Source: a virus | Length of the DNA: 64,000 bases | Virus record (IMG/VR): IMGVR_UViG_3300025133_000043 | Span: 40,727-104,726 of that record | Reading direction: 5' to 3' (one strand) | Shown here: piece by piece, positions 22,526-62,310 of the stretch | How the letters are laid out: each line of letters opens with the position of its first letter | Position numbering within the stretch: the stretch's first letter is position 1 | Notes under the pieces: generated by a model | The model's database searches: none | The model's input: the letters and a program-made list of their open reading frames with translations, nothing else | What the model was told of the DNA's origin: nothing | Program-made: the position numbers and the translations under genes

Positions 22526-22533
22526 TGGTCCTC

Positions 22534-22881: not shown

Positions 22882-22905
22882 TCCGCTTCCAGTTCCGATC
22901 TCAGG

Positions 22906-27138: not shown

Positions 27139-27376
27139 TGGTCTCTCCTACTTCGATGATCTGGTGGCTGAACCCGTAGGTTCGGTGGGAGGGCTTCCGA
27201 GGAGCGATCTCCACGTCCACCACGTGCCCCCGCATGGAGGGCATCTGCTCTTTCGGCTCACCGGCCACCCCTCGGCGCCAGCCCTCCCGAGCTCCCTGGA
27301 TCACGGACTTGAGCGTCCGGAGGGGGTGGAGGACCAGCGCGAAGAGGGCCGCTGCGCCCAGGATGAGCCGCCTCAC
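27104..27376 (-). CDS. Small single-pass membrane protein upstream of recA
   Basis: The protein has 90 aa from GTG 27374-27376, which overlaps the previous stop as GTGA. Residues 4-20 are hydrophobic ([16 protein letters not shown]) and could anchor it in the membrane. The rest is basic and soluble ([13 protein letters not shown]). It overlaps recA's 5' end by 35 nt in another frame. Function is unknown. The overlap-coupled start and sensible composition support a real gene. Confidence 0.55.
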
Positions 27377-27510
27377 TTCTTGGGCTTGGCCTTCTTGGAC
27401 TTGTCGATGTCCTTCTTGGCCTTGGCGGCGGCCTCCTTCTCCTTGGGGTCCTGGACGACGGCGTACTTCGTCATCCCCTTCTCTTCGGGCTTCTTGTCGG
27501 TGTTGCTCAT
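27373..27510 (-). CDS. Tiny lysine-rich protein
   Basis: The protein has 45 aa from ATG 27508-27510, overlapping the polymerase stop as ATGA. It is highly charged and Lys/Asp/Ala-rich ([19 protein letters not shown] at the C-terminus) and likely disordered. Translational coupling on both sides supports expression. Function is unknown; a polymerase- or DNA-associated accessory is possible. Confidence 0.5.
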   Translation of the reverse strand: MSNTDKKPEEKGMTKYAVVQDPKEKEAAAKAKKDIDKSKKAKPKK

Positions 27511-30634: not shown

Positions 30635-30643
30635 GTCTCCAGT

Positions 30644-30684
30644 GAGGTCGGCCCCGACAGGCAGCGCCCGCCGAGACCGACCTC
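30644..30684. other. Intergenic stem-loop in replication operon
   Basis: An exact 8-bp inverted repeat (30644-30651 pairs with 30677-30684) with a 25-nt loop fills most of the short gap between the zinc-ribbon gene and the next gene on the minus strand. No T-tract follows. It could be an attenuator, a processing site or a translational control element. Confidence 0.4.
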
Positions 30685-30695
30685 GTGGGGGCAGA

Positions 30696-32950: not shown

Positions 32951-32978
32951 TGCCGCTTCCTCTCCCTTGTGATCTGTC

Positions 32979-34325: not shown

Positions 34326-34455
34326 CTACCGCTCCGAAGGGTATGCCTTCCTGGCGCTGCTGAAGGAGGTTTGCGAAGACCGCAACAGCGCCGGAAGTAG
34401 TTCAGCCCACCCATCCTATTGGACGAGTACCGGGCGGTCAACGACCCTACTTCCC
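34326..34455. promoter_or_regulatory. 130-nt intergenic region with bulged stem-loop upstream of DnaB-like helicase
   Basis: This is the longest gap in the window. A 7-bp outer stem (34353-34359 with 34386-34392) encloses a 5-bp inner stem (34371-34375 with 34381-34385) and an 11-nt one-sided bulge containing AAGGAGG on the plus strand. Nearer the helicase start, TACCCT (complement of 34338-34343) could be a -10 box and GGAG a ribosome site on the minus strand. No open frame of note is present. Confidence 0.4.
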
Positions 34456-34758
34456 TCACGGCGCAGGGTAGGTCAGGCCGTCTCCCGAGGGTTCCATGAT
34501 GCTCTCGGGATCGTGGAGCTCAGTGCCCGAGACCTCGATGAAGTCGGACTCCAGCTGGGTAACGAAGGCGTCCAGGAGCGCCTGCGCCTCCGGGCTCATC
34601 ACGTTGCAGCGGACCTGGCCCATCGTCTGCCCGCCACCGTCCAGGTAGGCGACGCCGTAGAAGACCACCGGGTTCTGTCCACCCAGCTTGATGTTGAGCT
34701 CCATGACCCCGACGCCCTTGATGACGGGCCCGGTTCCGGGAGGGTACTCAGTCGGCAT
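34456..34758 (-). CDS. Small protein of unknown function
   Basis: The protein has 100 aa from ATG 34756-34758, which overlaps the upstream gene by 11 nt and follows a GAGGA at a workable distance. It is beta-rich (ELNIKLGGQNPVVFYGVAYL) with a helical C-terminal half (AQALLDAFVTQLE). There is no recognised motif. It is co-transcribed with the coiled-coil and UDG genes upstream of the helicase. Confidence 0.6.
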   Translation of the reverse strand: MPTEYPPGTGPVIKGVGVMELNIKLGGQNPVVFYGVAYLDGGGQTMGQVRCNVMSPEAQALLDAFVTQLESDFIEVSGTELHDPESIMEPSGDGLTYPAP

Positions 34759-35131
34759 CGGTGTCGTCCTCGAGCATGTGTGGGAAGAACTCACGTACCG
34801 CGGCGTCGAGACGCTCGGCGGCTTCCTTGGTCAAGCTGGCGTTGATCTCTTCGCGAGCCCGCCGCTTGTCGGCCGGGTCCAAGAACACCGGCTGGGTCTC
34901 CCAGACAGTGATCTCGATCTTCTCGCGGGCGAACTTCGTGCTCATGCCGACCGTGAGGGAGAGTCCGACGGACCCCATGGGCTGGGTGGCGAGCACGCCC
35001 TGGCCACCGTCTTCGGTGGTCTCGCGGTCAGCGATGACCCGCTCGTCCTCGTTCCGAGGTGTCACGGAGGCCCGCTTTCGGGCCCCCTTCTTGCGCCTGA
35101 GGAAGCCGTAGGGGGATGAGGAGTCGCTCAC
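34748..35131 (-). CDS. Small conserved-type phage protein
   Basis: The protein has 127 aa from GTG 35129-35131, overlapping the previous stop as GTGA. The frame is open much further upstream, but that part is a low-complexity Arg/Gly translation opposite or inside the neighbour. A basic N-terminus (LRRKKGARKRASVTPR) precedes a beta strand pair with the pattern GLSLTVGMSTKFAREKIEITV and a helical C-terminus. This pattern recurs in small phage proteins near replication genes, but no function is known to me. Confidence 0.6.
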   Translation of the reverse strand: MSDSSSPYGFLRRKKGARKRASVTPRNEDERVIADRETTEDGGQGVLATQPMGSVGLSLTVGMSTKFAREKIEITVWETQPVFLDPADKRRAREEINASLTKEAAERLDAAVREFFPHMLEDDTDAD

Positions 35132-35718
35132 GTTGCGATCCGGACGCTGGGGTTCTTGGCCTTGGCGGTGGTCCGGTGCTTGTAGACGTCCTTGGAGACG
35201 TCCTCCTGCTCGACCAGGCGCTCCAGCACAGCTGCGTCGATGGTGCGGACCACGACGAAGTCTCCGTCGATCTCCTGAGCCACGAGCTCGGGGAACTCCT
35301 CGAGCAGGGCCTCGGCGTTGAAGGCCGTGACGATCTGGGCCTTGGAGACCGTGACGGACACGGACACGTTGTCCTCGTCGTCGACGACCTTGAAGCCCTT
35401 CTTCATCAGGCACTCGACGGGCATGCCGTGGGCGAGGGCCTTGATCTCCTTCTCCAGTCGAGCCGCCTCGTTCTGCTTGTCCTCGACCAGCTGGGTGTTC
35501 TCGGGGTCGGCCTCGTCGATCGCCAGACGGAGCTGGGCGATCTTGTTGTCGATGCCCTCCCGCCGCTTCTCCAGCTTGGTGATCTCTGCCACCTTGTCGG
35601 CCTGGGTCTCCTGGATGTACTCGTCAGACTCCCGGAGGGTCTGCAGGACGTTGGCCAGGGCCTTGGCCTTCTTGATGATCGCCTTCTTGGTCTCGGCGAT
35701 CTTGGTCTCAATGCTCAA
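35128..35718 (-). CDS. Coiled-coil protein of unknown function
   Basis: The protein has 196 aa. Residues 1-95 are predicted long coiled coil (heptad-like Leu/Ile with K/E: ITKLEKRREGIDNKIAQLRL). The C-terminal half is a compact alpha/beta domain (NVSVSVTVSKAQIVTAF) ending in a short basic tail. The start is ATG 35716-35718. It lies between the UDG gene and the small GTGA-coupled gene. No enzyme motif is visible; a DNA-replication or recombination accessory is possible. Confidence 0.65.
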   Translation of the reverse strand: MSIETKIAETKKAIIKKAKALANVLQTLRESDEYIQETQADKVAEITKLEKRREGIDNKIAQLRLAIDEADPENTQLVEDKQNEAARLEKEIKALAHGMPVECLMKKGFKVVDDEDNVSVSVTVSKAQIVTAFNAEALLEEFPELVAQEIDGDFVVVRTIDAAVLERLVEQEDVSKDVYKHRTTAKAKNPSVRIAT

Positions 35719-35721
35719 GGG

Positions 35722-36510
35722 TCACTCCGTGTCGATGCCGCGCTGCGGGGGGATGGTCCCCTCGTAGACGTAGTTGAAGGAGTCGGCCATGCGGAAGGCG
35801 TGTCGCCACACCCGCCAGGCCATCTCCAGGTCAGAATTCGTCCGCTTCAGGTCTGCGTCCTTGAGTCGGAGCAGGTAGGCGGGGTTGAAGGTTGCGAAGG
35901 CCGAGAAGCGGACGGGCCGCAGCACGCCTGGGATCTCCACGCAGAGGCGGAGGGGGTCCGGTTCCTGGGCGATGGAGGTGATCCCCGTCTTGCAGGGCAC
36001 CAGCTCCTTGTCCTCGTAGTCCCCCCACTTCTTGGCCAGCTTGAGGGCGGCCTTGCCCAGGAGGATGACGACCTTGGGGTCCACGATGCGGATCACCTCG
36101 TAGAGGCGTTCCCGGCAGGCGGCGAGCTCGTCCTTGTTCGGCGGCCGGTCCCTGGAGGCATCCCCCGCTTCCGTCGCCCGGCAGGAGACCATGCTGTCGA
36201 ACCACACGTCGTCGCGGGTGACGTTCATGGACTTCAGGAAGTTGTCGACCATGGCGCCGACAGGGGTGTCCTCCCAGAAGAGGCCGTTGTAGCGGTCCTC
36301 CTTCCCCCTGGGAGCCTCTCCGATGATCATCACGTCTGCGTCGACGTTGGGACCTCCGAAGACTACGTGGGTCCTCTGCCGAGCTCGGGGCCGGCAGAGG
36401 TCGCATCGCTGGCAGGGGGAGATGACCGACTCCGGATCATCCGGGTCCTGACCACCGACGTACTGGAGTCGCAAGGCCTGGAGCATCTCGATCTTGGTGT
36501 CTGAGTCCAT
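35722..36510 (-). CDS. Family-4-type uracil-DNA glycosylase (iron-sulfur)
   Basis: The protein has 262 aa from ATG 36508-36510, TGATG-coupled to the helicase stop. C33-x2-C36-x2-C39 near the N-terminus supplies Fe-S ligands. GEAPRGKED at 64-72 is family-4 motif 1, and a VVILLGKAALKLA segment follows the DPK turn. FNPAYLLR replaces the usual HP-x-x-LLR (Asn in place of His). The enzyme removes uracil from DNA. In a phage genome, UDG-like genes repair the phage's own DNA or act in replication. The His-to-Asn change could alter catalysis. Confidence 0.8.
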   Translation of the reverse strand: MDSDTKIEMLQALRLQYVGGQDPDDPESVISPCQRCDLCRPRARQRTHVVFGGPNVDADVMIIGEAPRGKEDRYNGLFWEDTPVGAMVDNFLKSMNVTRDDVWFDSMVSCRATEAGDASRDRPPNKDELAACRERLYEVIRIVDPKVVILLGKAALKLAKKWGDYEDKELVPCKTGITSIAQEPDPLRLCVEIPGVLRPVRFSAFATFNPAYLLRLKDADLKRTNSDLEMAWRVWRHAFRMADSFNYVYEGTIPPQRGIDTE

Positions 36511-37871
36511 CAGGCTGCCTTCACGATGTGGTAGGGGTACTTCAGTGCGTTGAGGTGCCTGCGCAGCCTCCGGCACATGTTCTGGTGGGTCTTGACGTTC
36601 TCGTCCTCGAAGATGATCACGAAGGGCGGGTACTTGTCCTTGTAGGCCCTCTGGATCCTGCCCATCATCTGACGGAAGCGCCCCTCGTCGGTGAAGGGCA
36701 GGAGGATGAACAGGGTGTCCAGCTCCTTCCGGTCGAGTCCCTGCTTGGCGAGGGCTGCGATGGCGAACACCACGTCGTAGTTCTGGAGCTGGGCCTCGCG
36801 GTCCTTCCCCTTCACCTTGCCGTAGATCAGCCCCGCCTTCGGCTTGTACGCGCCGTGGAACATCCGGAGCTGCGGGATGCGCTCGCCCAGGACCAGGATC
36901 TTCCGTCCCTCATCCAGGGCGGAGTCGAGCTGCTCCCCGATGAAGGCGTTCCGGCCTTGGTGCTCTGAGAGCCAGGAGTGGATCTTAGGGATGGACAACT
37001 CGCCCGTCACGTCCCGGAGCTTCTTCATCTCCCCCATCTTCTTGGGGAACTTCACGCCGGTCTGCATGAAGAAGATCTCAGGGATGATGTCGTGGTCCAG
37101 GTTCTCGTAGAGGATCTCCCCGAGGTGGTACATGTAGAGCTGCTCGAGGCCATCGCTACGCTCCCAGGTCGCGGAGAGTCCCCACCGGATGCCCTTGAAG
37201 ATCCCCGCGGTCAGGTTGAAGTAGGGGGCTCCGAGGATGTGCACTTCGTCGTAGATCACCACGCCGAAGTGTCGGCTGAGCTCTGCGGGGATCTCAGCAA
37301 CCCGAGAGGACAGGGTCTGGACCATGGCGATGCAGATCGCCTTGCCTTCCCAGTCCCACTTCTTGCCCTGAATCCACCCGATGTCCTTCTCTCGAAGGTT
37401 CGTGTGCTCCATGATCCGGCTCTTCCACTGATGAGCCAGGTCGGAGGTGTTGACCACGATCATCGTCGGCATCCCGACGGCGGCCGCGGCGTGCAGGCCG
37501 ATCACGGTCTTCCCCTTGCCGCAGCTCAGGGAGAGGATGCCGCTGCCGTTGTCCACCAAGGCGCTGAAGGCCAGGTTCTGGACGGCGTCACGCAGCGTGC
37601 TGGTGGCTCGGAAGTCGACGCGGGGGAAGTCCCAGTCGATGCGGTCCTCGATCTCGAAGTTCAGCTCCGGGTAGTGGCTGACCGGGATGAACTCCCGAGG
37701 GACGATGAGGTGCGTGTCCGTCTCGTCCCAGGCGTAGATCGGTGCTTCACCTTCTCGGGTGAAGGAGAGGGCGGACTTCATCCCCCTCAGGTTCTTGATG
37801 CTCTTCTTAGGCAGCCAGAGGAAGTCCTTCCGGTAGCCGCGGTCCGGGCGCATGAGCCTCAGGCGCGCCAC
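36510..37871 (-). CDS. SF2 DNA helicase (UvsW/XPB-like)
   Basis: The protein has 453 aa and starts at GTG 37869-37871 (an ATG six codons in is an alternative). Motif I is SCGKGKT (116-122), motif Ia MIVVNTSDLAHQWK, motif II DEVH (208-211) and motif III GLSATWERSDG. Motif VI-like LLPFTDEGRFRQMMGRIQR closes the second RecA domain. This order matches SF2 helicases such as T4 UvsW, which unwind branched intermediates and control origin or recombination-dependent replication. It is encoded beside UDG, upstream of the replisome genes. Confidence 0.85.
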   Translation of the reverse strand: MARLRLMRPDRGYRKDFLWLPKKSIKNLRGMKSALSFTREGEAPIYAWDETDTHLIVPREFIPVSHYPELNFEIEDRIDWDFPRVDFRATSTLRDAVQNLAFSALVDNGSGILSLSCGKGKTVIGLHAAAAVGMPTMIVVNTSDLAHQWKSRIMEHTNLREKDIGWIQGKKWDWEGKAICIAMVQTLSSRVAEIPAELSRHFGVVIYDEVHILGAPYFNLTAGIFKGIRWGLSATWERSDGLEQLYMYHLGEILYENLDHDIIPEIFFMQTGVKFPKKMGEMKKLRDVTGELSIPKIHSWLSEHQGRNAFIGEQLDSALDEGRKILVLGERIPQLRMFHGAYKPKAGLIYGKVKGKDREAQLQNYDVVFAIAALAKQGLDRKELDTLFILLPFTDEGRFRQMMGRIQRAYKDKYPPFVIIFEDENVKTHQNMCRRLRRHLNALKYPYHIVKAA

Positions 37872-42303: not shown

Positions 42304-44223
42304 ATGGCTCTCGGCGGCACGTTCGGACCAGGCAGCTCTTTCAGGTTCTCAGGCTACAAGCATGGGAACTTGGACGGGCGCACGTCCAACTTCCGCTACC
42401 CGTCCCCCTGGTGGGACGTGGCGCACATGGACCTGCCGAGCACGGTCAAGCACCTGTTCCGGTGGTGCCGCTACCACGCCCTGGCCAACCCGCTGATCAG
42501 TGCGGTGATCCGCAAGATGGCGGAGTACCCGATCACGCGGGTGATCCTCGACTACGACGAGCGAGAGGGCTTCGATCACCAGAAGAAGCGGTGGGAGGAC
42601 CTCCTCTACAACGTCCTGGACATCCACCGCTTCCAGGTCGAGGCCGGCCTCGACTACCACGCCTACGGCAACTGCCTGGTGTCGATCGTCTACCCGTTCC
42701 ACAAGTACCTGACGTGCAGGAACTGCGGATTCAGCAAGCGGATCAAGAGGCTGAAGTTCAAGGTCCAGTGGGACTTCTCCAGCTGGAAGTACACGCTGAA
42801 CTGCCCGACGTGCTTCCACAACGGCCCCGCCAAGGTCGACGACAAGTGGTACCACTCCTACCGGGACATCAAGCTCCTGCGGTGGAACCCGTCTGACGTC
42901 GACATCGACTTCAACCCGATCACCCAGCGGACCCGGTACTACTACAACATCCCGGCGCGGATCAGGAAGCGGGTTCTGACCAAGCACCGGCACTACCTCG
43001 AGGAGATGCCGGACTCCTTCATCAAGGCGATGAAGACTCGCCGCCCGATCGAGCTCGTCGAGCGGAACCTCTACCACTTCAAGGCGCCGACGCCCTCGGT
43101 GCAGGACAACGACTCCGGTTGGGCCTACCCGCCGATCCTGCCGGCCTTGAAGGACAGCTTCTACCTGCAGGTGCTCAAGAAGGCCAACGAGGCCGTCATG
43201 CTCGAGCACCTGGTCCCGCTCGACGTTCTGTTCCCCTCGACACAGGATCCGAACGCCAGCCCGTACACGATGGTCAACCTGTCCGACTGGAAGCGTCGGG
43301 TCGAGGTGGAGCTGAAGCGCTGGCGGCAGGACCCGAACTACAAGCCGATCATGCCGCTGCCCATCGGGCACACTCGCATCGGCGGCGACGGCCGGTCCCT
43401 CATGCCGACCCAGGAGATCCGGGTCTGGTCTGAGCACATCATCACCGGCATGGGAGCTCCGCAGGAGTTCGTCTTCGGAGGCATGAGCTGGACCGGGTCG
43501 AGCGTGACCCTCCGGATGCTGGAGAACCGGTTCCTGAACTACCGGGAGGAGCACCACCGCTTCCTCAACCACTTCCTGCTGCCCAACATCGCCCGCTTCA
43601 TGTCCTGGAAGCAGCCCAAGGCCCACATGAAGGCCTTCAAGATGGCGGATGACCTCCAGTCCAAGCAGCTGCTCATGAGCCTCAACCAGCTCAAGAAGAT
43701 CAGCGACAAGACCCTGCTGTCCGAGTTCGACAAGGACGCCCTGGACGAGACGAGGCTCATCGAGACGGAGCTCAGGCGCAACCTCGAGGTGGCCAAGCTC
43801 GACTCGCTCTACAAGGCTGAGATCCAGGGCGAGATGCAGCAGATCCAGACCAAGTACCAGATCGAAGCCCAGAAGAAGATGCAGGAGGCCCAGAAGAAGA
43901 TGCAGGAGAAGGGTGGCATGCCTGGCATGCAGCACCCGCAGGGGATGGCCGCGCAGCCCGGACCTACACCCGAAGGAAACCCCGCAGCCGGTCAGCCGCC
44001 TCAGGGCGGCGGGGTCAACCTCATCGATTACGCTGAGGCCCTCGCGAAGAGGCTTTCGCGGATGCCGGACCAGGAGAGGGCCGGCTACCTGCAGAACATG
44101 GCGCAGCAGAGCCCGAGGCTCTCTGAGCTGGTCCAGCAGAAGATGGCGGTCATGACCGCCTTGGAGCAGCAGCCGCTCCCAGAGCAGCGTCCTCCACGTC
44201 GCGCAGGTGGCGCGGGGATCTGA
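42304..44223 (+). CDS. Portal-type protein with inserted zinc ribbon
   Basis: The protein has 639 aa. The core shows the portal pattern: helix-rich ends with a late EHIITGMGAPQEFVFGG segment (the 'wing/clip' loop before the crown), then SSVTLRMLENRFLNYR and an FLNHFLLPNIARF helix. A zinc ribbon, C138-x2-C141 and C167-x2-C170, is inserted in the N-terminal half between beta strands (YLTCRNCGF; NCPTCF). The last 130 residues are Gln/Met/Pro-rich with coiled-coil character (QGEMQQIQTKYQIE). The portal forms the DNA entry dodecamer. The call rests on pattern and place in a head block that also holds the terminase. Confidence 0.7.
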   Translation: MALGGTFGPGSSFRFSGYKHGNLDGRTSNFRYPSPWWDVAHMDLPSTVKHLFRWCRYHALANPLISAVIRKMAEYPITRVILDYDEREGFDHQKKRWEDLLYNVLDIHRFQVEAGLDYHAYGNCLVSIVYPFHKYLTCRNCGFSKRIKRLKFKVQWDFSSWKYTLNCPTCFHNGPAKVDDKWYHSYRDIKLLRWNPSDVDIDFNPITQRTRYYYNIPARIRKRVLTKHRHYLEEMPDSFIKAMKTRRPIELVERNLYHFKAPTPSVQDNDSGWAYPPILPALKDSFYLQVLKKANEAVMLEHLVPLDVLFPSTQDPNASPYTMVNLSDWKRRVEVELKRWRQDPNYKPIMPLPIGHTRIGGDGRSLMPTQEIRVWSEHIITGMGAPQEFVFGGMSWTGSSVTLRMLENRFLNYREEHHRFLNHFLLPNIARFMSWKQPKAHMKAFKMADDLQSKQLLMSLNQLKKISDKTLLSEFDKDALDETRLIETELRRNLEVAKLDSLYKAEIQGEMQQIQTKYQIEAQKKMQEAQKKMQEKGGMPGMQHPQGMAAQPGPTPEGNPAAGQPPQGGGVNLIDYAEALAKRLSRMPDQERAGYLQNMAQQSPRLSELVQQKMAVMTALEQQPLPEQRPPRRAGGAGI

Positions 44224-44484: not shown

Positions 44485-47400
44485 ATGCCCCACCTCAATC
44501 CGGATCAGCAGTTCGAGGCGCTCTCCGCGAAGGTCTCGGAGGCTGTCGAGGAGGCGCTCCAGGTTGAGACCAAGAACTCCAAGCTGGTGGTCCACTCCGT
44601 CGAGGTGAGGGACACCAAGAGTGCCTCCGACCTGCGGGACCAGCAGAAGGCCATCCGAAGCGGGAAGTCCTGGCAGGTGCCGATCTACGCGGACATGTCC
44701 CTGATGCGGAAGGGCCGTGACGGCGACATGAAGGAGATCGACAGGAAGAAGGTGATCGTCGGGCACCTCCCCCGGACTACAGACCGATTCGGCTACATCC
44801 ACAAGGGCAGCGAGTACCAGATCTTCAACCAGCTCCGTCTCCGGCCCGGCGTCTACCACCGGAGGAGCCGAGACGACAAGCTCTACGCGGAGTTCAACCT
44901 CGGGAACCACGAGGCCCTCACCGGACAGGAGGGGAGGCGCGGCCGCTCCTTCAAGATGGAGTTTGATCCGAAGCGAGCGCTGTTCCTGGTGCACGTCGGC
45001 ACCTCGAAGATGGCGGCCTACCCCCTGCTCAAGTCGGCGGGCGTCTCCGACGATGCCCTGGAGCGCGCCTGGGGGAAGAAGCTGCTCGAGCGCAACAAGC
45101 GCTACTCCAAGCCCGAGCGGGTCTACGGCAAGTTCTACAAGGCCGTGCACGGATCTCTGCCGGAGAACCCCGCCGAGCACGCCGGCCTGTTCGCCGAGCA
45201 CCTGGCCCGCACGGAAGTCGACCAGCAGACCACCAAGCGGACCCTGGGCAAGGGCTTCAAGAGCGTGGACGGTGACACGCTGATCGAATCCTCGAAGCAG
45301 CTCCTGTCCATCTCCCGCGGCGACCGCGAGCCGGACAACAAGTCCTCGATGGAATTCCAGTCGGTCAACGCGGCTGAGGACCTGATCTCAGGACGCATCC
45401 GGAGGGACGCCTCGACCATCCAGCGGAAGATCCGGTGGAACATCGACAAGCGGCGCAATCTGAAGAAGGTGGTCCCCTCCGGGACCGTCACGCCGTCGAT
45501 CAAGAAGTTCTTCAGCCAGAGCCTCGCCAACGAGCCGGACCAGACCAACCCGCTCGGGATGCTGGCCGGGCAGACCGCCACGACCATCCTAGGAGAGCAG
45601 GGAGGCATCGCCAACCCCTTCGCCGTCCTGGACGAGGCCAAGCTCCTGAACGCCAGCCAGTTCGGCTTCCTGGACCCCGTGAGGACGCCGGAGGGCGACA
45701 AGACGGGCATCACCCTGTCCCTGGCCCTCGGCACGGAGAAGAAGGGCGACACCGTCGTCTCCCGCTTCAAGAACGCCAGGACCGGCAGGACCGAGAAGCT
45801 GTCGCCGGCGGACACCGCTGGAAAGGTGATCTCCTTCCCGGACCAGTACAAGGGGCGCAAGGCTCGTGGGAAGCGGGTCAAGGCACTCCGGGATGGGGAG
45901 ATCACCTACGTGAGCCCCAAGGAGGTCGACTACATCCTCCCCAGCCCGCGGGCTGTGTTCGGGGTGAGCTCGAACCTGGTGCCCTTCCTGCAGAACAACC
46001 AGGGCAACCGGGCCATGACTGCCGCCAAGCAGGCGGAGCAGGCCGTGCCTCTGAAGGAGCGGGAGGCTCCCCTGGTCCAGGTGCAGACAGACGGCGACCA
46101 GTCGTTCGAGGAGATCTTCGGAGAGTACTCGGCGCGGAAGGCACCGATCGCAGGCACCGTCGACCAGGTCCGGAAGGACGCGGTGATCATCAAGGACCGC
46201 AAGGGGAAGAAGCACGAGGTCCAGTTTTACCGGGACTTCGCCCTGCCGGGCGGCTCGCTCTACGACTCCGAGGTCAAGGTCAAGGCCGGAGACAAGGTCG
46301 CGGAGGGGGACCTCCTCGTCGACTCCACCTTCACCAAGGACGGTACCCTGGCCCTGGGCACCAACCTCCGGGCCGCCTACATCCCGTTCCAGGGCTACAA
46401 CTTCGAGGATGGGATCGTCATCAGCGAGACGGCGGCGAAGAAGCTGACCTCGCTCCACGTGCACCCGAACCAGGCACGCCTGGACAAGCTGGCGATCACC
46501 GAGCGGAAGAAGTTCTTGTCTCAGTACCCCAGCGACTTCGACAAGGATCAGCTGGCCAGCATCGACGACGATGGACGGATCAAGATCGGTTCCAAGGTCG
46601 TCGAGGGTGACCCGCTGGTACTGGTGCTCAAGCCGCCGACGCCCAGCCAGCAGCTCAAGGACATCCGAGAGTTCCGGCGCGGGCGGAGCAGGAAGTTCCG
46701 GAACCGCTCGATGACCTGGGACAAGCCCTACCCCGGAGTGGTCAGCGACGTGGTGCGCCGCAGCGACGGCAGCATCATGGTCTACGTGAAGACCGAGGAG
46801 CCTGCGCAGATCGGAGACAAGCTCGTCGGCCGACACGGAAACAAGGGCGTGATCACCCGCATCGTCCCGGATGCGGAGATGCCGTTCATGGACGAGGACG
46901 GCGAGAACAAGCACGTCGAGATCGCCCTGAACCCTCTGGGCGTGCCTGGGCGCATCAACCTGGGTCAGGTCCTGGAGACCGCGGCCGGCAAGGTCGCAGA
47001 GAAGACCGGCGAGACCTACCGGGTCAGGAACTTCGACGGCGACACCGACTACCTCGCCATGGTCAAGAAGGACCTGGCAGCCCTGGGGCTCACGGACAAG
47101 GAGTCCTTGATCAACCCCAAGACGGGGAAGCCCTTCGATCAGGACGTGCTGACCGGCCGCCAGTACATCGTGAAGCTCAAGCACCAGGCGGGCAAGAAGA
47201 TCGCCGTCAGGTCCGGAGACCCCGGAGCTGGGTGGGACGTGCACCACGCCCCGACAGGAGGAGCTCCGCACGGCGGTCAGTCCCTGGGCGAGCTGGGGCT
47301 CTACGCCATGCTGGCCCACGGCGCCCGCGACAACCTCCACGAGATGTACGCCTACAAGAGCACGCGCAACGACGCGCTCTGGGACGCCATCCGGGACAAC

Positions 47401-50400
47401 AAGCGGATCCCTCCGGCCAAGGTCCCCTTCGCCTACGACAAGTTCGAGAACTACCTCCGCTCCATGCGGGTGAACCCCGTGAAGGAGGGGTCGCAGATCT
47501 CCCTGATGCCCTTCACGGAGGCCCAGGTCCGCAAGATGAGCTCGGGCAAGCTCACGAAGCCCAACCGCGCCGTCATGGGGAAGGACATCAAGCCGGAGGT
47601 GGGACGGATCTTCGACCCGGCCACCACCGGGGGACTCAACGGCACGAAGTGGAGCCACATCGAGCTCGCGGAGCCCCTCCCCAACCCCCTGTTCGAGGAG
47701 GCCGTCCAGAAGGTCCTCGACATCGACAAGACCCGCTACCGCAAGATCCTGGCCGGGGAGGTCAAGGTCAACGGCAAGGTCGGCGGCGCCGCCTTCGAGG
47801 AGATGCTCAAGCAGGTCGACGTGAAGAAGGAGCGAGCAGAGCTGGAGGAGCGGGCCAAGCGCCTGAAGGCCGGGTCGCGCTCCAAGGTCCACAAGCGGCT
47901 CCGCGTCTTCAAGATGCTCGAGGACAACAACCTCGACCCCTCGATCTACATGATGCGGGCGGTCCCGGTCCTGCCCCCCGTCTTCCGCCCGCCGGTGGTC
48001 AACGACGACGGCTCCCTCTCCAACACGGATCTGAACTACCTCTACAAGGACCTGGGCACGGTCAACCAGACCATGACCGACGCCAAGAAGGCTGGGATCC
48101 CGTCGTACGGCCTGGCCGAGGACCGGGTCGCCGTCTACGACGCGCTCTCGGCGCTCAACGGCAACGGGCCCAGCCTCACCCGCGAGTACCGCGGTGTCCT
48201 GGACATCATCTCCGGGCAGACCAAGAGCAAGGACGGCTCCCGCAAGGGGCGGTCCAAGAACGGCTACTTCCAGAAGACGCTGATCAAGAGGCGGCAGGCC
48301 TACTCGGGCCGGTCCATCATCATCCCTGAGCCCCACCAGGGCATCGACGAGCTGGGCGTCCCCGAGAAGATCGCCTGGGGCCTCTACGCGCCCTACGTCC
48401 AGCGCGAGCTCGTCCGGATGAACTGGAACCCACTGGATGCCAGGGAGGCCATCAACAAGAAGTCCGTGCCCGCCCAGAAGACCCTCGAGCGGGTCATGAA
48501 GGACCGGCCGATCCTGCTCAAGCGGGACCCGTCGCTGCACAAGTTCAACGTCATGGCCTTCAAGCCTCGGATCGTGAAGGGCAACGCCCTGGAGATCCAC
48601 CCGCTGGTCACGTCCGGCTACAACGCCGACTTCGACGGCGACGCCATGAGCGTCTACCTGCCGGTCACCAGCAAGGCGGCTCGGGAGGCGACGCAGATGT
48701 TCCCCTCGAACAACCTGTTCAACCCGACCGACGGATCCGTCATGTATACCCCAGGGCATGAAGCCCTCCTGGGGATGTACCTGGCGAGCAAGCCGGGCAG
48801 GAAGACCTCCCACGCCTTCAAGGACATGCACGACGCCCGGCGGGCCAAGATGCAGGGCAAGATCAAGCTCACAGACCAGATCAAGGTGGGTGGAGACCCG
48901 ACCACCCTGGGTCGTCTGGAGATCGAGGCCGTGCTCCCTGCCGAGATGCGTGAGACCGGGAAGAAGCCTGTCGGCAAGATGCGGCTGATGGACAAGGGTG
49001 GGACCAAGACCATCCTGGCCGACATCGCCAAGAACCACCCGGACCTCTACGCCGAGGTCTCCAACCGCTTCAAGGACATCGGCAACGACCACAGCTACGA
49101 GATCGGCTTCTCCATCGGCCTGGACGACTTCCAGGTGGTCAACAAGTCCCAGCGAGACAAGATGATCGACGGGGCTCAGCGCGAGGCCGACCGGATCCGG
49201 TCCACGACCAAGGACAAGAAGAAGGGCAAGGCGAAGGCCATCGCTCACCTGCAGAAGGTGGACGACGAGATCGACAGGCTCAGCGATCTGGCGCTCAGGG
49301 ACAACCCCACCAACATCTACGAGATGGTGATCTCCGGATCCCGAGGGAAGCCTGAGCAGCTCAAGCAGATCATCAGCACCCCTGCGCTGGTGATGGACGC
49401 CAAGAGCCGGGTGGTCCCGTTCATGATCGACCGGAGCTACTCGGAGGGCATGGACCTGGGCTCCTACTGGACCACGATGCACGGAGCTCGGAAGGGCGCT
49501 GTGCAGAAGGTGCAGGGCGTCCGCGACCCCGGCTACCTGTCCAAGCGGATCAACAACACCACGATGGACCAGGTCGTCTCCAAGGGCGACTGCGGGACCA
49601 CCGCGGGGATCAAGCTGGACCTGGACAACAGGGACCTGGTCGACCGCTACCTCTCCACCTCAGTGAAGCTCGACGGCAAGGTCCACAAGGCCGGGTCGAT
49701 GGTCACGCCCAGCGTGGTCGCCGCTGCCCGCAAGTCGAAGAGGTCCGACCTCCCCGTCCGCTCTCCCCTCCGGTGCCGGGCCAAGAACGGGGTGTGCCAG
49801 AAGTGCCTGGGCCTCAACGAGATGGGGAAGGAGTCGGACATCGGCACCAACATCGGCGTCATCGCCGGTCAGGCCGTGGGAGAGCCCAGCGTCCAGCTCA
49901 GCCTCAACACCTTCCACACCGGAGGCATCGCCAAGGGCCGGTCAGCCCGCTCCGCGAACACCTTCCAGACCCTGAACAACCTCCTGACGCTGCCCAAGAA
50001 CCTCCCGGACTCGGCCCCGCTGGCTGAGAGGGGCGGGAAGGTGTCCACGGTCCGGCAAGCTCCCCAGGGCGGCTGGGACGTGGAGATCGGAGGGAAGAAG
50101 CACTACGTCCGAGGTGATCACGAGCTCATGGTGCGCCGTGGACAGGAGGTCCGGAAGGGCGACGCGCTCTCGGATGGCGTGGTCGATCCCCGGAAGCTCC
50201 TGGAGCTCCGCGACGTCGAGGACGTGCAGGACCTGATGTCGGACGAGATCGAGAGCGTCCTGCACAACAACGCGGCCAAGGTGAAGCGCCGCAACATCGA
50301 GGTCATCGTCCGCGCCATCACCAACCTGGCGGAGGTCGACGACCCTGGGGACAACCCGGACTGGTCGCCGGGTGACTTCCGACGCATCAGTGAGATCAAG

Positions 50401-50667
50401 CACTGGAACGACGTGTCCGGTCCGTCCAAGAAGGACGTGCGATACACGCCCACCCTCAAGGGTGTCGGGCAGATGCCGCTGGCCATGCAGGAGGACTGGA
50501 TGGCACGCTTGAACTTCCAGAAGCTCAACGACACCATGGAGCGTGCGGTACGAGAGGGCTGGAAGAGCGACATCCACGGCTACCATCCGATCCCCGCGGC
50601 GGCGCATGCCTCCGAATTCGGCAAGGGTGAGGAGGTACTCGGGAAGGACTGGGCAGGGCAGTACTGA
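44485..50667 (+). CDS. Single-chain multisubunit-type RNA polymerase: fused beta and beta-prime
   Basis: The protein has 2,060 aa. Beta half (about 1-998): IHKGSEYQIFNQLRLRPGVY (N-terminal lobe), FLDPVRTPEGDKTGI, FQGYNFEDGIVISE (638-648), GDKLVGRHGNKGVITR (777-790), NPLGVPGRINLGQ and GGQSLGELGLYA. Beta-prime half (about 1004-2060): FTEAQVRKMSSGKL, WSHIELAEP, VPVLPPVFRPP, KRRQAYSGRSIIIP, YNADFDGDAMSVYLP with metal ligands D1382, D1384, D1386, PGYLSKR, zinc site C1703/C1764/C1771/C1774, and the trigger loop SLNTFHTGG (1806-1814). It is smaller than E. coli beta plus beta-prime (about 2,750 aa). The first beta-prime zinc domain is replaced by GRIFDPATTGGLNG. No alpha, omega or sigma gene is in the window. 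It should transcribe phage DNA without a split active site. Confidence 0.95.
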   Translation: MPHLNPDQQFEALSAKVSEAVEEALQVETKNSKLVVHSVEVRDTKSASDLRDQQKAIRSGKSWQVPIYADMSLMRKGRDGDMKEIDRKKVIVGHLPRTTDRFGYIHKGSEYQIFNQLRLRPGVYHRRSRDDKLYAEFNLGNHEALTGQEGRRGRSFKMEFDPKRALFLVHVGTSKMAAYPLLKSAGVSDDALERAWGKKLLERNKRYSKPERVYGKFYKAVHGSLPENPAEHAGLFAEHLARTEVDQQTTKRTLGKGFKSVDGDTLIESSKQLLSISRGDREPDNKSSMEFQSVNAAEDLISGRIRRDASTIQRKIRWNIDKRRNLKKVVPSGTVTPSIKKFFSQSLANEPDQTNPLGMLAGQTATTILGEQGGIANPFAVLDEAKLLNASQFGFLDPVRTPEGDKTGITLSLALGTEKKGDTVVSRFKNARTGRTEKLSPADTAGKVISFPDQYKGRKARGKRVKALRDGEITYVSPKEVDYILPSPRAVFGVSSNLVPFLQNNQGNRAMTAAKQAEQAVPLKEREAPLVQVQTDGDQSFEEIFGEYSARKAPIAGTVDQVRKDAVIIKDRKGKKHEVQFYRDFALPGGSLYDSEVKVKAGDKVAEGDLLVDSTFTKDGTLALGTNLRAAYIPFQGYNFEDGIVISETAAKKLTSLHVHPNQARLDKLAITERKKFLSQYPSDFDKDQLASIDDDGRIKIGSKVVEGDPLVLVLKPPTPSQQLKDIREFRRGRSRKFRNRSMTWDKPYPGVVSDVVRRSDGSIMVYVKTEEPAQIGDKLVGRHGNKGVITRIVPDAEMPFMDEDGENKHVEIALNPLGVPGRINLGQVLETAAGKVAEKTGETYRVRNFDGDTDYLAMVKKDLAALGLTDKESLINPKTGKPFDQDVLTGRQYIVKLKHQAGKKIAVRSGDPGAGWDVHHAPTGGAPHGGQSLGELGLYAMLAHGARDNLHEMYAYKSTRNDALWDAIRDNKRIPPAKVPFAYDKFENYLRSMRVNPVKEGSQISLMPFTEAQVRKMSSGKLTKPNRAVMGKDIKPEVGRIFDPATTGGLNGTKWSHIELAEPLPNPLFEEAVQKVLDIDKTRYRKILAGEVKVNGKVGGAAFEEMLKQVDVKKERAELEERAKRLKAGSRSKVHKRLRVFKMLEDNNLDPSIYMMRAVPVLPPVFRPPVVNDDGSLSNTDLNYLYKDLGTVNQTMTDAKKAGIPSYGLAEDRVAVYDALSALNGNGPSLTREYRGVLDIISGQTKSKDGSRKGRSKNGYFQKTLIKRRQAYSGRSIIIPEPHQGIDELGVPEKIAWGLYAPYVQRELVRMNWNPLDAREAINKKSVPAQKTLERVMKDRPILLKRDPSLHKFNVMAFKPRIVKGNALEIHPLVTSGYNADFDGDAMSVYLPVTSKAAREATQMFPSNNLFNPTDGSVMYTPGHEALLGMYLASKPGRKTSHAFKDMHDARRAKMQGKIKLTDQIKVGGDPTTLGRLEIEAVLPAEMRETGKKPVGKMRLMDKGGTKTILADIAKNHPDLYAEVSNRFKDIGNDHSYEIGFSIGLDDFQVVNKSQRDKMIDGAQREADRIRSTTKDKKKGKAKAIAHLQKVDDEIDRLSDLALRDNPTNIYEMVISGSRGKPEQLKQIISTPALVMDAKSRVVPFMIDRSYSEGMDLGSYWTTMHGARKGAVQKVQGVRDPGYLSKRINNTTMDQVVSKGDCGTTAGIKLDLDNRDLVDRYLSTSVKLDGKVHKAGSMVTPSVVAAARKSKRSDLPVRSPLRCRAKNGVCQKCLGLNEMGKESDIGTNIGVIAGQAVGEPSVQLSLNTFHTGGIAKGRSARSANTFQTLNNLLTLPKNLPDSAPLAERGGKVSTVRQAPQGGWDVEIGGKKHYVRGDHELMVRRGQEVRKGDALSDGVVDPRKLLELRDVEDVQDLMSDEIESVLHNNAAKVKRRNIEVIVRAITNLAEVDDPGDNPDWSPGDFRRISEIKHWNDVSGPSKKDVRYTPTLKGVGQMPLAMQEDWMARLNFQKLNDTMERAVREGWKSDIHGYHPIPAAAHASEFGKGEEVLGKDWAGQY

Positions 50668-52235
50668 TGTGGAAGAGGCGATTCCAGGGATCCACGAACA
50701 TCCACCAGCACCAGTCCAAGGTGACGATGGGGATGATCCAGGAGGTGAACAACACCTCCTACACGTGCACGGTGGTGACGCCGGACAACTGCGTCCACGA
50801 GGGCGTCCCGATCAACCCCATGAACGTGGGGGCGGACGGCCAGGGCAACTTCTTCATGCCGGAGGTCAACACGCCCGTCTGGCTCTGCCGCCCCAGCGAC
50901 CAGAAGGCCCCCTTCATCATGGCCGGCGCCAGCCTCCCCAGGCAGCTCGACGACGCGGACGACGAGGAGGACCCCAACGACCACCGGATGAACAGGCCGG
51001 TGCTCGGTCAGGGCGATCAGATGATCTCCGGGCCGGGGTCCAACCCCTTCATCATCCTGCGCAAGGGCGGCTCTTTGGAGATCGGCTCCACGCAGATGAG
51101 CCAGAGGATCTACCTCCCTCTGCAGGACACCATCCGGGAGTTCTTCTCGAACTGGGAGCAGAACGCCGCCGGCGGCAAGCTCGAGTGGAAGTCCAGGACC
51201 AGCGACGACTCCCACGGCTCGGGAAAGGACCCGGTCGAGTTCCGGCTGCAGGTCAAGGAGTTCTCCGACGAGGACCCCATGATCGACCTGGGGCTGGGTC
51301 GTATCTCTGACGAGGACGCCCAGGCGGTCATCAACGGCAGCAACGGCCAGATCGTCGGCCGTCTGCTGATCAACAACAACTACCAGGTCTGGATCGACAA
51401 GGACGGCAACTGCCAGAGGATCCAGGGCGGAGGCGAGTTCGTCAACCTGGAGGGGAAGAAGATCGAGTTCATCGCTGCGGACTTCTTCCAGCAGGTTCGA
51501 GGCATCAGCTCCGTCGACTACGGCTCCAGGAACGTGGTCGTGCACAGGTCCGACTCCCTCAGCGTGGGTACGGACAGGGCGGTTTCGGTGAACGGCAGCC
51601 TGACGGAGACGATCAGCGGACCCGTCACCAGGACCACGGGCAGGCTCACTGAAGAGATCAAGGGCGCAGTCGAGAGGACAGTCAACGGAGACCTGGCGGA
51701 GGTCGCCACGGGCACAGCTCAGATCACCGCCGGTGCCGACTACCGAGAGAAGGTCGGAGGGAACACGAAGGAGATCATCAGCGGGAAGAAGGAGGTCACG
51801 ATCACCAACGCCAACTGGCTCTCCGGCGAGGATGTGGGCTACCAGCTCACCTGCAACCAAGGTGAGATCGGCATCCACGGAATCACCAGCGACCTCCGCA
51901 TCACGATGGGGCTCACGAAGCTGGCCCCCTTCGGAGAGATTCGGATCTCCCCTACCGGAGCCATCTTCTTGGAGAACATGCTCGGCGAGTTGTCCAAGGT
52001 GGAGATCAACGCCACTGGAATCCAGATCACCACAGCGGCTGGGGAGATTTCGATCGACCAGCTTGGGACAGTCTTCATGGGCATGGCGGGCGCCGCCGGC
52101 GCAGTCGTCACCACCCTCACCCACCCCGTCGACTACGTGACGGGTGCTCCCATCCTGGGAGCGAGCTCAGTCGGCGCCAGCGGCATCCCGAGCCCCGTGG
52201 CTCTGCCCTCAACATTCGTCAGTGAGAGCCTCTGA
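50667..52235 (+). CDS. Baseplate central spike (VgrG/gp5-like) protein
   Basis: The protein has 522 aa. Residues 20-110 look like an OB-fold (GMIQEVNNTSYTCTVVTP; INPMNVGADGQGN). From about 290 to 400, short repeating strands of the form S-L-S-V-G-x-D-R-A-V-S-V-N-G and L-T-E-T-I-S-G-P-V-T build a triple-stranded beta-helix, as in the gp5 and VgrG needle. The C-terminal tip is Gly/Ala/Ser-rich. The spike pierces the host envelope during contraction. It starts 1 nt into the polymerase stop (TGATG), so the two are translationally coupled. Confidence 0.8.
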   Translation: MWKRRFQGSTNIHQHQSKVTMGMIQEVNNTSYTCTVVTPDNCVHEGVPINPMNVGADGQGNFFMPEVNTPVWLCRPSDQKAPFIMAGASLPRQLDDADDEEDPNDHRMNRPVLGQGDQMISGPGSNPFIILRKGGSLEIGSTQMSQRIYLPLQDTIREFFSNWEQNAAGGKLEWKSRTSDDSHGSGKDPVEFRLQVKEFSDEDPMIDLGLGRISDEDAQAVINGSNGQIVGRLLINNNYQVWIDKDGNCQRIQGGGEFVNLEGKKIEFIAADFFQQVRGISSVDYGSRNVVVHRSDSLSVGTDRAVSVNGSLTETISGPVTRTTGRLTEEIKGAVERTVNGDLAEVATGTAQITAGADYREKVGGNTKEIISGKKEVTITNANWLSGEDVGYQLTCNQGEIGIHGITSDLRITMGLTKLAPFGEIRISPTGAIFLENMLGELSKVEINATGIQITTAAGEISIDQLGTVFMGMAGAAGAVVTTLTHPVDYVTGAPILGASSVGASGIPSPVALPSTFVSESL

Positions 52236-58581: not shown

Positions 58582-58976
58582 AAGGACTTCTTCGCAGCCG
58601 CATGCCGCTTCTCCTTCTTCCTCTTCCACTCGTCGATCTCCCCCTCCTTCACCAGGTCGAGGGAGATCTCCAGCATGAGGCGGACAGGGATGGGACGGCC
58701 GCCTGTGGGGGTCCAAGCTACCTGGTGGGGATCGACTGGGGTGCACCTGGTGGTGATGCGCAGGCCCTTCAGGTCTTTCAGTGCATCCCGGAGCCAGGAC
58801 CGGACGTAGCGGCGAGCCTCGACATCCTTCCGGTCCCCCGGCGCCGCACTCCTGACAGGGATCCGGAGGACTACCCCAGTCCCCGTTTCGCTCTGATCTA
58901 CACCCGCTATGATCCTCCCCGCGGAGACCTTCTCCAGGACCGCGAGTAGAGGCGTGAGGTCAGGGACGTGCAGCAT
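58542..58976 (-). CDS. Minus-strand island protein of unknown function
   Basis: The protein has 144 aa from ATG 58974-58976; the longer frame upstream is antisense to the terminase and excluded. A putative leaderless -10 (TATGTT) lies 6 nt before the ATG. Its start overlaps the terminase start head to head by 9 nt and its end overlaps the module gene. Residues 1-60 are beta-like (RIIAGVDQSETGTGVVLRIP) and the end is a basic-acidic helix (EGEIDEWKRKKEKRHAAAKK). Function is unknown. Confidence 0.5.
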   Translation of the reverse strand: MLHVPDLTPLLAVLEKVSAGRIIAGVDQSETGTGVVLRIPVRSAAPGDRKDVEARRYVRSWLRDALKDLKGLRITTRCTPVDPHQVAWTPTGGRPIPVRLMLEISLDLVKEGEIDEWKRKKEKRHAAAKKSFYEELATEKSSDS

Positions 58977-60695
58977 GCCCACAACATAGCTGAGGAGGAC
59001 GAAGGGAACCTCGAGCTGACTCCCCTGGAGTTCACCGAGCTCGCCATCCGTCACAAGGGAGAGCCCATCGAGCTCCTCAGGCGGCCGTGGCTCGACGAGA
59101 TCTACGACCTGCCGGCGACGCCGATCGAGCGGCTGAACGAACTCACCGACCACATGGAGGAGGTCTACCGGCGGAACCTGCTGCTGATGTTCGGCCGGCA
59201 GTCGGAGAAGAGCACGACCCTGGGCAACCTGCTCATCGCGCTCTGCAACCTGATCCCGTTCCTCCGGGCCCTCTACGTCAGCGCCTCCGACACGCAGATG
59301 CGGGAGTTCAGCGACGAGCGGCTCCGGGCTGTGATCGCTACGTCCCCCATCCTGCAGCGTATGGTCGGCGTCGGCCTGAAGGGACACCTACAGACGCAGA
59401 ACGTCCAGACGAAGCGGTGGGTCACCGAGGCGAAGATCGCCCTCCGCGCCGCCTACCGGAACGCAGACCGTGTCCGCGGTATCGCCTCAGACCTCCTGGC
59501 TATCGACGAGATCCAGGACATCATCATCGACATCCTGCCGGTCATCGAGGAGGTCCTCTTCCGTTCGGAGCTCGCCGGCGGACCTCTCTCCATCTACGCT
59601 GGCACGCCGAAGACCTTCGACAACGCCCTCGAGTTCTACTGGAGCAGGCACTCCACCCAGAACGAGTGGATGACCAAGTGCGGCTGCGGGAAGTGGGCGG
59701 TCATCGACGAGGACCACATCGGTCCCACCGGCCTGAAGTGCAAGGAGTGCTCCAAGGAGATCAACCCGGTCGACGGCCTGTCTCAGTGGGTACGTCTGGG
59801 GTCTGAGAACGCGGAGTGGGAGGGCTTCCACCTCTGCCAGCCCATCGTGGTCTACTCCTACCGCCACCAGCCCGACATCTTTAACCGGATGTGGCAGGGG
59901 CTGCTGCTCAAGCACAAGCGGTACCCGCGCCAGAAGTGGATGAACGAGGTCATGGGGCGCAGCTACGACGCTGGCCTCAAGCCTGTGACCCTGCAGGAGG
60001 TCCGGGACTGCTGCGTCCAGGACTACGAGATGATCGACAGCCCTGCCAAGGGCATGAAGCAGAGCTTCTCCTGGGCGGGCATCGACTGGGGTACTGGCGA
60101 CCAGAGCTACTCCGTGATCTCGATCTGGAACTACGACAGCCGAGGCAGGTTCCGGTGCATCTTCGCCAAGCGCTACGAGGGCCGAGAGACCGACCCTGAC
60201 TACGTGGTCGAGGACATGATCATGTGGATCCGAGTCTTCGGTGTGAACCGCATCGGGGCTGACTGGGGCTTCGGCTTCCACACCAACCGGATCATGCAGA
60301 AGAAGCTGGGCGCCCAGCGGATCATCCAGTACCAGTACGTCGGCCGCCTCAAGGAGAAGGTGAAGTGGGACAAGCAGGGGAACAAGTTCATCTGCCACCG
60401 CTCCCGCGTCATGCAGGACTTCTTCTCCTTGATCAAGCGGGGGCCGAAGTCGGGAGGCATCGCCTTCTTCAACTGGGAGCAGTTCGAGACCTTCGCCCGA
60501 GACATCCTGGCGATCTACTCCGAGTACAGCGACAAGGCTCGGGAGATCATCTTCAACCATCCGCCTGGCACCCCTGACGACTTCATGCACACCGGGGTCC
60601 TGGCCCTCCTGGTCAGCCAGTTCGATCACCAGCGTCCGGACCTCCACGCCCCCGGCACCGGCAAGAAGTTCAAGCACCGCAACGCACGCCGGTAG
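58968..60695 (+). CDS. Terminase large subunit (DNA packaging motor)
   Basis: The protein has 575 aa and starts at GTG 58968. The ATPase domain has Walker A GRQSEKST (76-83), where Glu replaces the usual Gly before the Lys, and Walker B LLAIDE (D180, E181). A zinc ribbon (C238-x-C240 ... C258-x2-C261) sits between ATPase and nuclease domains. The nuclease domain shows AGIDWGTG (D373), GADWGFG (D432) and GTPDDFMH (D537/D538), the RNase H-like acidic set. It pumps DNA into the prohead and cuts it. A clear bidirectional terminator follows. Glu at this P-loop position is seen in some large-phage terminases, to my recollection; that cannot be checked here. Confidence 0.9.
   Translation: MQHAHNIAEEDEGNLELTPLEFTELAIRHKGEPIELLRRPWLDEIYDLPATPIERLNELTDHMEEVYRRNLLLMFGRQSEKSTTLGNLLIALCNLIPFLRALYVSASDTQMREFSDERLRAVIATSPILQRMVGVGLKGHLQTQNVQTKRWVTEAKIALRAAYRNADRVRGIASDLLAIDEIQDIIIDILPVIEEVLFRSELAGGPLSIYAGTPKTFDNALEFYWSRHSTQNEWMTKCGCGKWAVIDEDHIGPTGLKCKECSKEINPVDGLSQWVRLGSENAEWEGFHLCQPIVVYSYRHQPDIFNRMWQGLLLKHKRYPRQKWMNEVMGRSYDAGLKPVTLQEVRDCCVQDYEMIDSPAKGMKQSFSWAGIDWGTGDQSYSVISIWNYDSRGRFRCIFAKRYEGRETDPDYVVEDMIMWIRVFGVNRIGADWGFGFHTNRIMQKKLGAQRIIQYQYVGRLKEKVKWDKQGNKFICHRSRVMQDFFSLIKRGPKSGGIAFFNWEQFETFARDILAIYSEYSDKAREIIFNHPPGTPDDFMHTGVLALLVSQFDHQRPDLHAPGTGKKFKHRNARR
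58983..58988 (-). promoter_or_regulatory. Putative leaderless -10 box (TATGTT on minus strand)
   Basis: On the minus strand TATGTT is followed by 6 nt and then the ATG at 58976-58974, the same TANNNT-N6-ATG geometry as at 2731 and 62305. No strong -35 is visible. Confidence 0.4.
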
Positions 60696-62280: not shown

Positions 62281-62310
62281 TTGACGTTCGATCTCTCACA
62301 GGAGTAGATT
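62281..62310 (+). promoter_or_regulatory. Sigma70-type leaderless promoter TTGACG-N18-TAGATT
   Basis: TTGACG (62281-62286), an 18-nt spacer and TAGATT (62305-62310) form the best consensus promoter in the window, and the -10 box ends exactly 6 nt before the ATG at 62317. The transcript would start at the start codon. It lies in the divergent gap opposite the HTH gene. Its host-like form suggests recognition by the host polymerase. Confidence 0.65.

Follow-up and report, generated by a model that had tools for sequence, protein, structure and literature searches.

Among described phage RNA polymerases (RNAPs), the closest counterparts of the enzyme reported here are those of the multi-subunit RNAP-encoding Caudovirales (mReC; Weinheimer and Aylward 2020, PMC7481178). 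According to the main text of that paper, mReC were selected with cellular beta and beta' models, a length of at least 800 amino acids (aa), and the motif NADxDGD, and the major capsid protein family PF07068 was present in 8 of 97 mReC contigs. The words "fused" and "fusion" are used in that main text for crAssphage only, and the enzymes are otherwise described as beta and beta' subunits. In a later paper (PMC10159854), the base of the mReC is described as having a viral gene for "RNAP beta and beta prime". Here, we analyzed a stretch of 64,000 nucleotides (the window; positions 40,727 to 104,726 of the IMG/VR virus record IMGVR_UViG_3300025133_000043), in which one gene at positions 44485 to 50667 encodes a single-chain beta-beta' DNA-dependent RNAP of 2,060 aa. 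The original prediction, made from the letters of this DNA, had described known phage RNAPs of this type as either split or very diverged. That survey was incomplete, since near-cellular RNAPs had already been described in mReC, as the main text of PMC7481178 indicates, and since Helicobacter and Wolinella have fused rpoB-rpoC genes (PMC1557499). No description of the phage fusion was found in our literature search of open-access papers.

The open reading frame (ORF) starts with ATG on the + strand, as do all features below unless stated otherwise, and contains zero internal stops. The chain is encoded once in the source record (G000, 104,726 bp). Pfam domains of beta, namely, Rpb2_3 (residues 353-415), Rpb2_6 (609-926, E=2.7e-60), and Rpb2_7 (930-960), are followed in order by the beta' domains Rpb1_1, Rpb1_2 (E=3.5e-27), Rpb1_3, Rpb1_4, and Rpb1_5 (E=2.8e-23). 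In phmmer searches, beta was matched by the first ~990 residues (E=5e-85) and beta' by residues 1070-2026 (best E=4e-108). The window chain is a complete bacterial-type beta running directly into a complete beta'. Pfam, phmmer, sequence alignment, and AlphaFold models agreed on a beta part of residues 1 to ~1000 (44485..47484), which carries the double-psi beta-barrel (DPBB) lysines K779 and K787 in GDKLVGRHGNKG, and on a beta' part of residues 1010-2060 (47512..50664).

The two parts are joined tightly. Beta ends at about E. coli position 1338 and beta' restarts at about 15; because just 18 E. coli residues (beta 1339 to beta' 14) are missing at the join, there is almost no linker. The junction sequence is ...LRSMRVNPVKEGSQISLMPFTEAQVRKMSSGKL..., and residues 996-1009 (47470..47511) are predicted to form a hairpin by alignment and two models. 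AlphaFold was run on two overlapping pieces, residues 1-1090 (model m88ebdf96a37c; predicted local distance difference test score [pLDDT], 84.2; predicted template modeling score [pTM], 0.75) and residues 861-2060 (model mec4568894753; pLDDT, 89.0; pTM, 0.87). Both models, which overlap at the junction, contained strands at 996-1001 and 1004-1009 and thus predict a tight beta-hairpin there. In Foldseek comparisons with the PDB, the beta piece matched bacterial beta (E=4e-72; template modeling score [TM], 0.73) and the beta' piece matched bacterial beta' (E=3e-69; TM, 0.79); for each piece, all 50 of the matches listed were bacterial RNAP. The root mean square deviation of the beta piece from bacterial beta was near 11 A across its whole length, which we read as movement between its lobes. 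These results bear out the original prediction of one chain that stays near the cellular layout, with beta and beta' domains in order in one frame and with each half, modeled separately rather than as the full chain, matching its bacterial counterpart in both sequence and fold.

The fusion was conserved among relatives. IMG/VR protein and alignment scans gave hundreds of relatives, which were 31 to 56% identical to the window chain; in the first relative set, nearly all were one ORF of ~2,000 to 2,830 aa, with a guanine-plus-cytosine (GC) content of 0.30 to 0.68. The survey used a profile of 2,037 positions, and 219 non-identical loci were testable at the beta/beta' join. One ORF spanned the join in 207 of them. 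Complete single chains (Type I) made up 93 of the 207 loci, and 66 loci encoded beta-beta'N with a separate beta'C, cut at profile position ~1452 after the beta' DPBB (Type II). A cut near profile positions 1085-1110 defined a further 22 loci (Type III), and the remaining 26 had other or partial forms. The 12 exceptions at the join were contig ends, other lineages (Cobetia, Yersinia, Rhizobium TM, Vibrio 1.031/Va2), the TGA-recoded locus L218, and locus L270. The close pair L050/L060, the one informative pair, showed strong purifying selection, with a proportion of synonymous differences (pS) of 0.35, a proportion of nonsynonymous differences (pN) of 0.013, and a nonsynonymous-to-synonymous ratio (dN/dS) of 0.028. 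As judged from these sequence comparisons, the single frame is far beyond chance, because it recurs in relatives at 31 to 56% identity and a GC content of 0.30 to 0.68 and is under purifying selection in L050/L060.

We considered whether the frame could be an assembly or reading-frame artefact that hides two genes. Locus L270, in which two frames meet at the junction, would fit this explanation; however, only one base in 1,100 separates L270 from its single-chain neighbor L265, a 1-base indel, no stop interrupts the join in 207 non-identical loci, and the frame is under purifying selection. An assembly artefact was ruled out by relatives from independent metagenomes, and the chance that the gene is really two genes is negligible.

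Several relatives showed additional features in their RNAP genes. Intein-like inserts of ~320 to 520 aa were located at conserved RNAP motifs, after positions corresponding to window residues 403, 780/791, 1385/1386, 1685, and 1807, in L039, L074/L075, L086, L090, L092, L241, L247, L259, L264, L278, L280, L283, and L285, with four inserts in L285 and three in L264. Pfam searches of three inserts gave LAGLIDADG_3 in all three and an intein-splicing domain in one. The RNAP gene of L218 (L218:9971-16036) contained 11 in-frame TGA codons (TGA 11 versus TGG 4), and in-frame TGA was also present in L258 and L070/L219. Several of these codons occupy alignment columns where nearly all relatives have W, and TGA is probably read as Trp in these phages. 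The separate beta'C of L251, L252, L271, L273, L280, L283, L285, and L288 carried a C-terminal extension of ~400 to 840 aa, which the window-type chain does not have. L287 (L287:9860-16822) encoded a very divergent, Zn1-less single-chain RNAP of 2,320 aa that adjoins a portal gene.

Next, we examined the catalytic residues by aligning the window chain with Salmonella RpoB and RpoC (26% and 27% identity, respectively), whose positions were taken as E. coli numbering. All residues checked were kept: E813, D814, K1065, K1073, and R1106 of beta and R425, N458, D460, D462, D464, R731, Q929, and H936 of beta'. The bridge-helix residue T790 corresponds to V1679. The catalytic residues of the two DPBBs, two lysines in beta and DxDGD in beta', were thereby present. 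Among 102 fused representatives, the equivalents of beta D814, K1065, K1073, and R1106 and of beta' R425, D460, and D464 were kept in all, and those of beta' D462, H936, and Q929 were kept in 100, 100, and 101, respectively. The beta catalytic motif KLVGRHGNKG lies at residues 779-788 (46819..46848; GRHGNKG at 782-788), and both K779 and K787 were found in 102/102 fused chains. By alignment, the metal A-binding loop NADFDGD occupies residues 1380-1386 (48622..48642), the trigger-loop motif FHTGG residues 1810-1814 (49912..49926), and the beta' zinc site Zn2, with its four cysteines kept, C1703/C1764/C1771/C1774 (49591..49806).

The other beta' zinc site, Zn1, was lost. None of its cysteines (E. 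coli C70/C72/C85/C88) was found in the aligned window chain, in which the ribbon (E. coli beta' 68-99) is deleted at residue 1053 (47641..47643). Zn1 was absent from 102/102 fused representatives but kept in ten bacteria and two separate-gene phages; the sole long segment at the Zn1 place, in L268, resembles an intein. The original prediction of full motif sets was therefore correct for GRHGNKG, NADFDGD, Zn2, and FHTGG, whereas the Zn1 site of beta' is missing. Further stretches missing relative to E. coli were beta 230-326, beta 938-1049, beta 1125-1178, and beta' 946-1131; beta 230-326, beta 938-1049, and beta' 946-1131 are what we take to be E. coli lineage-specific inserts. In addition, the Zn2 cysteines were swapped in some Type II/IV chains (L253, L271, and others; e.g., VRSPLVGGPGDGGVFGKD), and ~16/102 chains overall had no Zn2 cysteines. 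Type II/IV chains with these cysteines replaced would therefore be without either beta' zinc site.

The history of the two halves was investigated with separate FastTree phylogenies of beta and beta' (114 taxa), with ten bacterial genomes of five phyla as the cellular sample and archaea left out. Bacteria and phages were split with a support of 1.0 in both trees, and 101 fused phages were grouped with supports of 1.0 (beta') and 0.998 (beta). The window chain fell in the same clade of six in both half-trees (support, 1.0). An IQ-TREE analysis of 44 taxa agreed on the main groups, with supports of 100 for bacteria, 100 for the fused clade without L287, and 95 for Types II-IV; the supports bearing on whether Type I is paraphyletic to the split forms were low (46 to 54), and its deep branches had no firm order. 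L287 fell outside the main fused clade, with separate-gene phages and no stable place. With respect to the ten bacterial references, the RNAP clade is separate from cellular RNAP in the trees, and the fusion, as far as the sequences tell, is an old trait common to a large phage group. In the INPHARED phage collection, bacterial rpoBC was also encountered: the taxonomy given in AFYI01000006.1 (H8) makes it a contig of a Salmonella genome, whereas OR846602.1 (H4) groups with Bacillota.

These trees bear on whether a host rpoB-rpoC pair was recently captured and fused, recent capture being an idea raised by the original prediction. The close resemblance of sequence and fold to bacterial RNAP and the known rpoB-rpoC fusions of Helicobacter and Wolinella (PMC1557499) would agree with such a capture. 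However, bacterial relatives were 27 to 30% identical to the window chain, compared with 31 to 56% for phage relatives, the bacteria/phage split was found in both halves, Zn1 is deleted across the clade, and the portal-linked gene is common to phages with a GC content of 0.29 to 0.68. Identity and trees thus ruled out recent capture for the sampled bacteria, and we consider it very improbable. The alternative idea of a distinct phage RNAP class was supported. The doubts that a frameshift was hidden or that unrelated halves had been joined were removed by the single frame over the join in 207/219 loci and by the congruent beta and beta' trees, respectively.

Because all split forms keep the join in one gene and are cut elsewhere, one fusion followed by fissions is the simplest history, and the split relatives would point to an ancestral fusion. 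The beta' splits of phiKZ and cyanobacteria are placed after the DPBB (review PMC7598289), the same place as the Type II cut. The clade thus suggests a fusion with repeated fission away from the cellular beta/beta' border, and since the fission sites include the post-DPBB position, it is relevant to the way in which phage RNAPs came to be fragmented.

The genes around the RNAP gene are, by homology, those of a contractile-tailed phage, in agreement with the proposed phage origin of the protein. Directly upstream is a portal gene (42304..44223), which matched the "portal protein" of Salmonella phage Arash (tblastn, E=2e-72) and those of Vibrio phages D69, D148, and D181. Downstream, the start codon of a gp5-like baseplate hub/spike gene (50667..52235; phrog_430, 2e-7) overlaps the RNAP stop codon. 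The window also contains genes for a terminase large subunit (58968..60695; phrog_675, 1.3e-38) and a baseplate wedge subunit (8178..10799; phrog_6, 7.7e-15), and a replication/recombination block on the - strand (21230..37871) encodes a Cas4-like exonuclease, UvsX-like recombinase, DNA polymerase, primase, DnaB-like helicase, and helicase. Matches to the terminase model PF03237 were weak, both in G000 (E=0.007, short of the cut-off) and in a few relatives. Portal homologs were found upstream on the same strand in 135/167 loci, within 3 kb in 94, and spike homologs were found downstream in 100 loci and upstream in none. The only INPHARED relatives of the portal were Arash, D69, D148, and D181, all of which carry fused RNAP.

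Because the gene sits in this portal-spike block, we propose that the RNAP may be made late and packaged in the virion for injection, a tentative reading to which we give close to an even chance. A non-virion RNAP, made in early or mid-infection to transcribe late genes and never packaged, is also plausible, although somewhat short of evenly balanced. The complete cellular-like clamp and active site, unlike the clamp-less virion RNAP of P23-45 (PMC10770324), and the sigma factors of several relatives, which suggest ordinary promoter programs, agree with this alternative, whereas two observations do not: in most of the clade, the gene is flanked by portal and spike and co-directional with them, and its stop codon overlaps the spike start.

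The alpha domain PF01000 was found in 0/30 phage records, and the control was positive in 13/14 genomes. In the same 30 records, Sigma70_r2 was above the cut-off in 6 (three low-GC phages of the single-chain type, Arash, its relative L181, and D69) and absent at that cut-off from the window's record and most single-chain records. The flap-tip sequence LLRAIFGEKA, near-identical in all ten bacteria, is replaced in the window chain by REFRRGRSRKF, and, as a qualitative impression, sigma-encoding relatives look different at this place. Since sigma region 2 was not detected and the flap-tip is lost, promoters of window-type phages are probably read either by a factor of the phage or by some divergent portion of the polymerase chain itself. 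A hybrid holoenzyme using host alpha and/or sigma would agree with the clamp-helices region (residues 1174-1220; 48004..48144), the counterpart in the alignment of the coiled coil that binds sigma in E. coli, and with the lack of detected alpha and sigma in the window's record; given that the bacterial flap-tip is not kept, we regard it as rather unlikely. A sigma-70 site scan of 44 to 63.9 kb gave 4 sites versus 1.6 expected in shuffles, which is too weak to use. One sigma-70-like site, TTGACG-18-TAGATT at 62281-62310, upstream of a gene at 62317 and barely above chance, hints that some of the phage genes may be transcribed by host RNAP. Inspection of intergenic stretches, with no motif search, revealed no defensible repeated motif.

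Altogether, the best explanation, which we consider quite likely, is that the gene encodes the RNAP of an old contractile-tailed phage lineage with a bacterial-type core, in which the whole crab claw is one polypeptide. The chain would actively transcribe a template by the ordinary chemistry of two metals, bridge helix, and trigger loop. Its covalent join would make pairing and a 1:1 beta:beta' stoichiometry automatic, and it may therefore replace the alpha-dimer assembly platform absent from these phages. Promoter recognition in window-type phages would occur without sigma, which some relatives still encode, and the place in the structural block suggests that the chain is packaged in the virion. 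Some points weigh against this explanation: a place among structural genes is no proof of packaging, the models are two overlapping pieces and so do not predict how the halves are placed relative to each other in the full chain, the record is a metagenomic contig and IMG/VR entries may be fragmentary, so that alpha or sigma could lie off-contig, and the enzyme could borrow either from the host. T4-like phages commonly process head-associated proteins with proteases, and the chain might be translated whole and then cut at the junction, e.g., by a prohead protease, with beta and beta' working separately; the short hairpin predicted at the junction offers no spacer for cleavage, and this alternative is improbable.

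More speculatively, the fused, alpha-free, sigma-independent chain would be ancestral to the clade and packaged and injected as one ~230 kDa polypeptide, with all splits (after the DPBB and near profile positions 1085 and 918) being later fissions. We regard this combined proposal as doubtful; if true, the enzyme would be a virion RNAP of near-cellular type, and its fusion would have adapted it to being packaged and to assembling without alpha. A single-gene, alpha-free, near-cellular RNAP lets the roles of alpha, omega, Zn1, and sigma be asked directly, and because the clade has cultured members (Salmonella phage Arash and Vibrio phages D69, D148, and D181), packaging and promoter use are testable now.

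We compared the chain with known systems. It differs from the bacterial alpha2-beta-beta'-omega core by the absence of an alpha gene (0/30 records) and of Zn1. Fused RpoB-RpoC of Helicobacter and Wolinella has the same order and fusion place but is cellular, ~2,900 aa long, and fused inside a bacterial lineage, whereas the phage chain is shorter and Zn1-less (PMC1557499). Similar to the vRNAP/nvRNAP (virion and non-virion RNAPs) of phiKZ/AR9-type jumbo phages, it has no alpha or omega, and the phiKZ/AR9 beta' is cut after the DPBB as in Type II relatives; however, those enzymes consist of at least 4-5 very diverged polypeptides, and the window chain is uncut and near-cellular (PMC7598289). The crAss-like phi14:2 gp66, P23-45 gp64/gp96, YonO, and QDE-1 are also multisubunit RNAP homologs in one polypeptide but are highly diverged, whereas full-length beta and beta' are recognizable by sequence in the window chain. 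Cobetia phage Carin-5 and Yersinia phage GN1 encode beta and beta' alignable with bacteria, but as separate genes with beta' first, Zn1 kept, and NLDYDGD, outside the fused clade. Arash and D69 share the portal-small ORF-RNAP order and carry beta and beta'N in one frame (Arash gp206, 1,525 aa), but a cut after the DPBB leaves their beta'C to a gene of its own (Arash gp216, 606 aa), the motif is AADYDGD instead of NADFDGD, and a sigma factor is encoded.

Very probably, the fused family corresponds to the RNAP already known from mReC. As described in the main text of PMC7481178, mReC also have a tailed-phage RNAP alignable with cellular beta/beta', a deep clade outside bacteria, surrounding structural genes, and an occurrence in IMG/VR. 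The window contains cellular-type RNAP matches (to Pfam models, not COG0085/0086), NADFDGD, and terminase, baseplate, and portal genes. The mReC rules given there would admit Type I and NADFDGD-bearing Type II and would exclude Arash (AADYDGD) and Cobetia/Yersinia (NLDYDGD). The identification follows from these rules; none of the contigs named in that text was among the relatives returned by the IMG/VR alignment and single-protein scans. A difference is that the PF07068 major capsid protein of eight mReC was found neither in the window's record nor in the fused-RNAP relatives searched, with a positive T4 control. The main text of PMC7481178 makes no mention of the conserved fusion, Zn1 loss, or re-splitting, although its authors may know of the fusion. 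The enzyme family is thus not new; the fusion itself is solid and can be tested on cultured phages.

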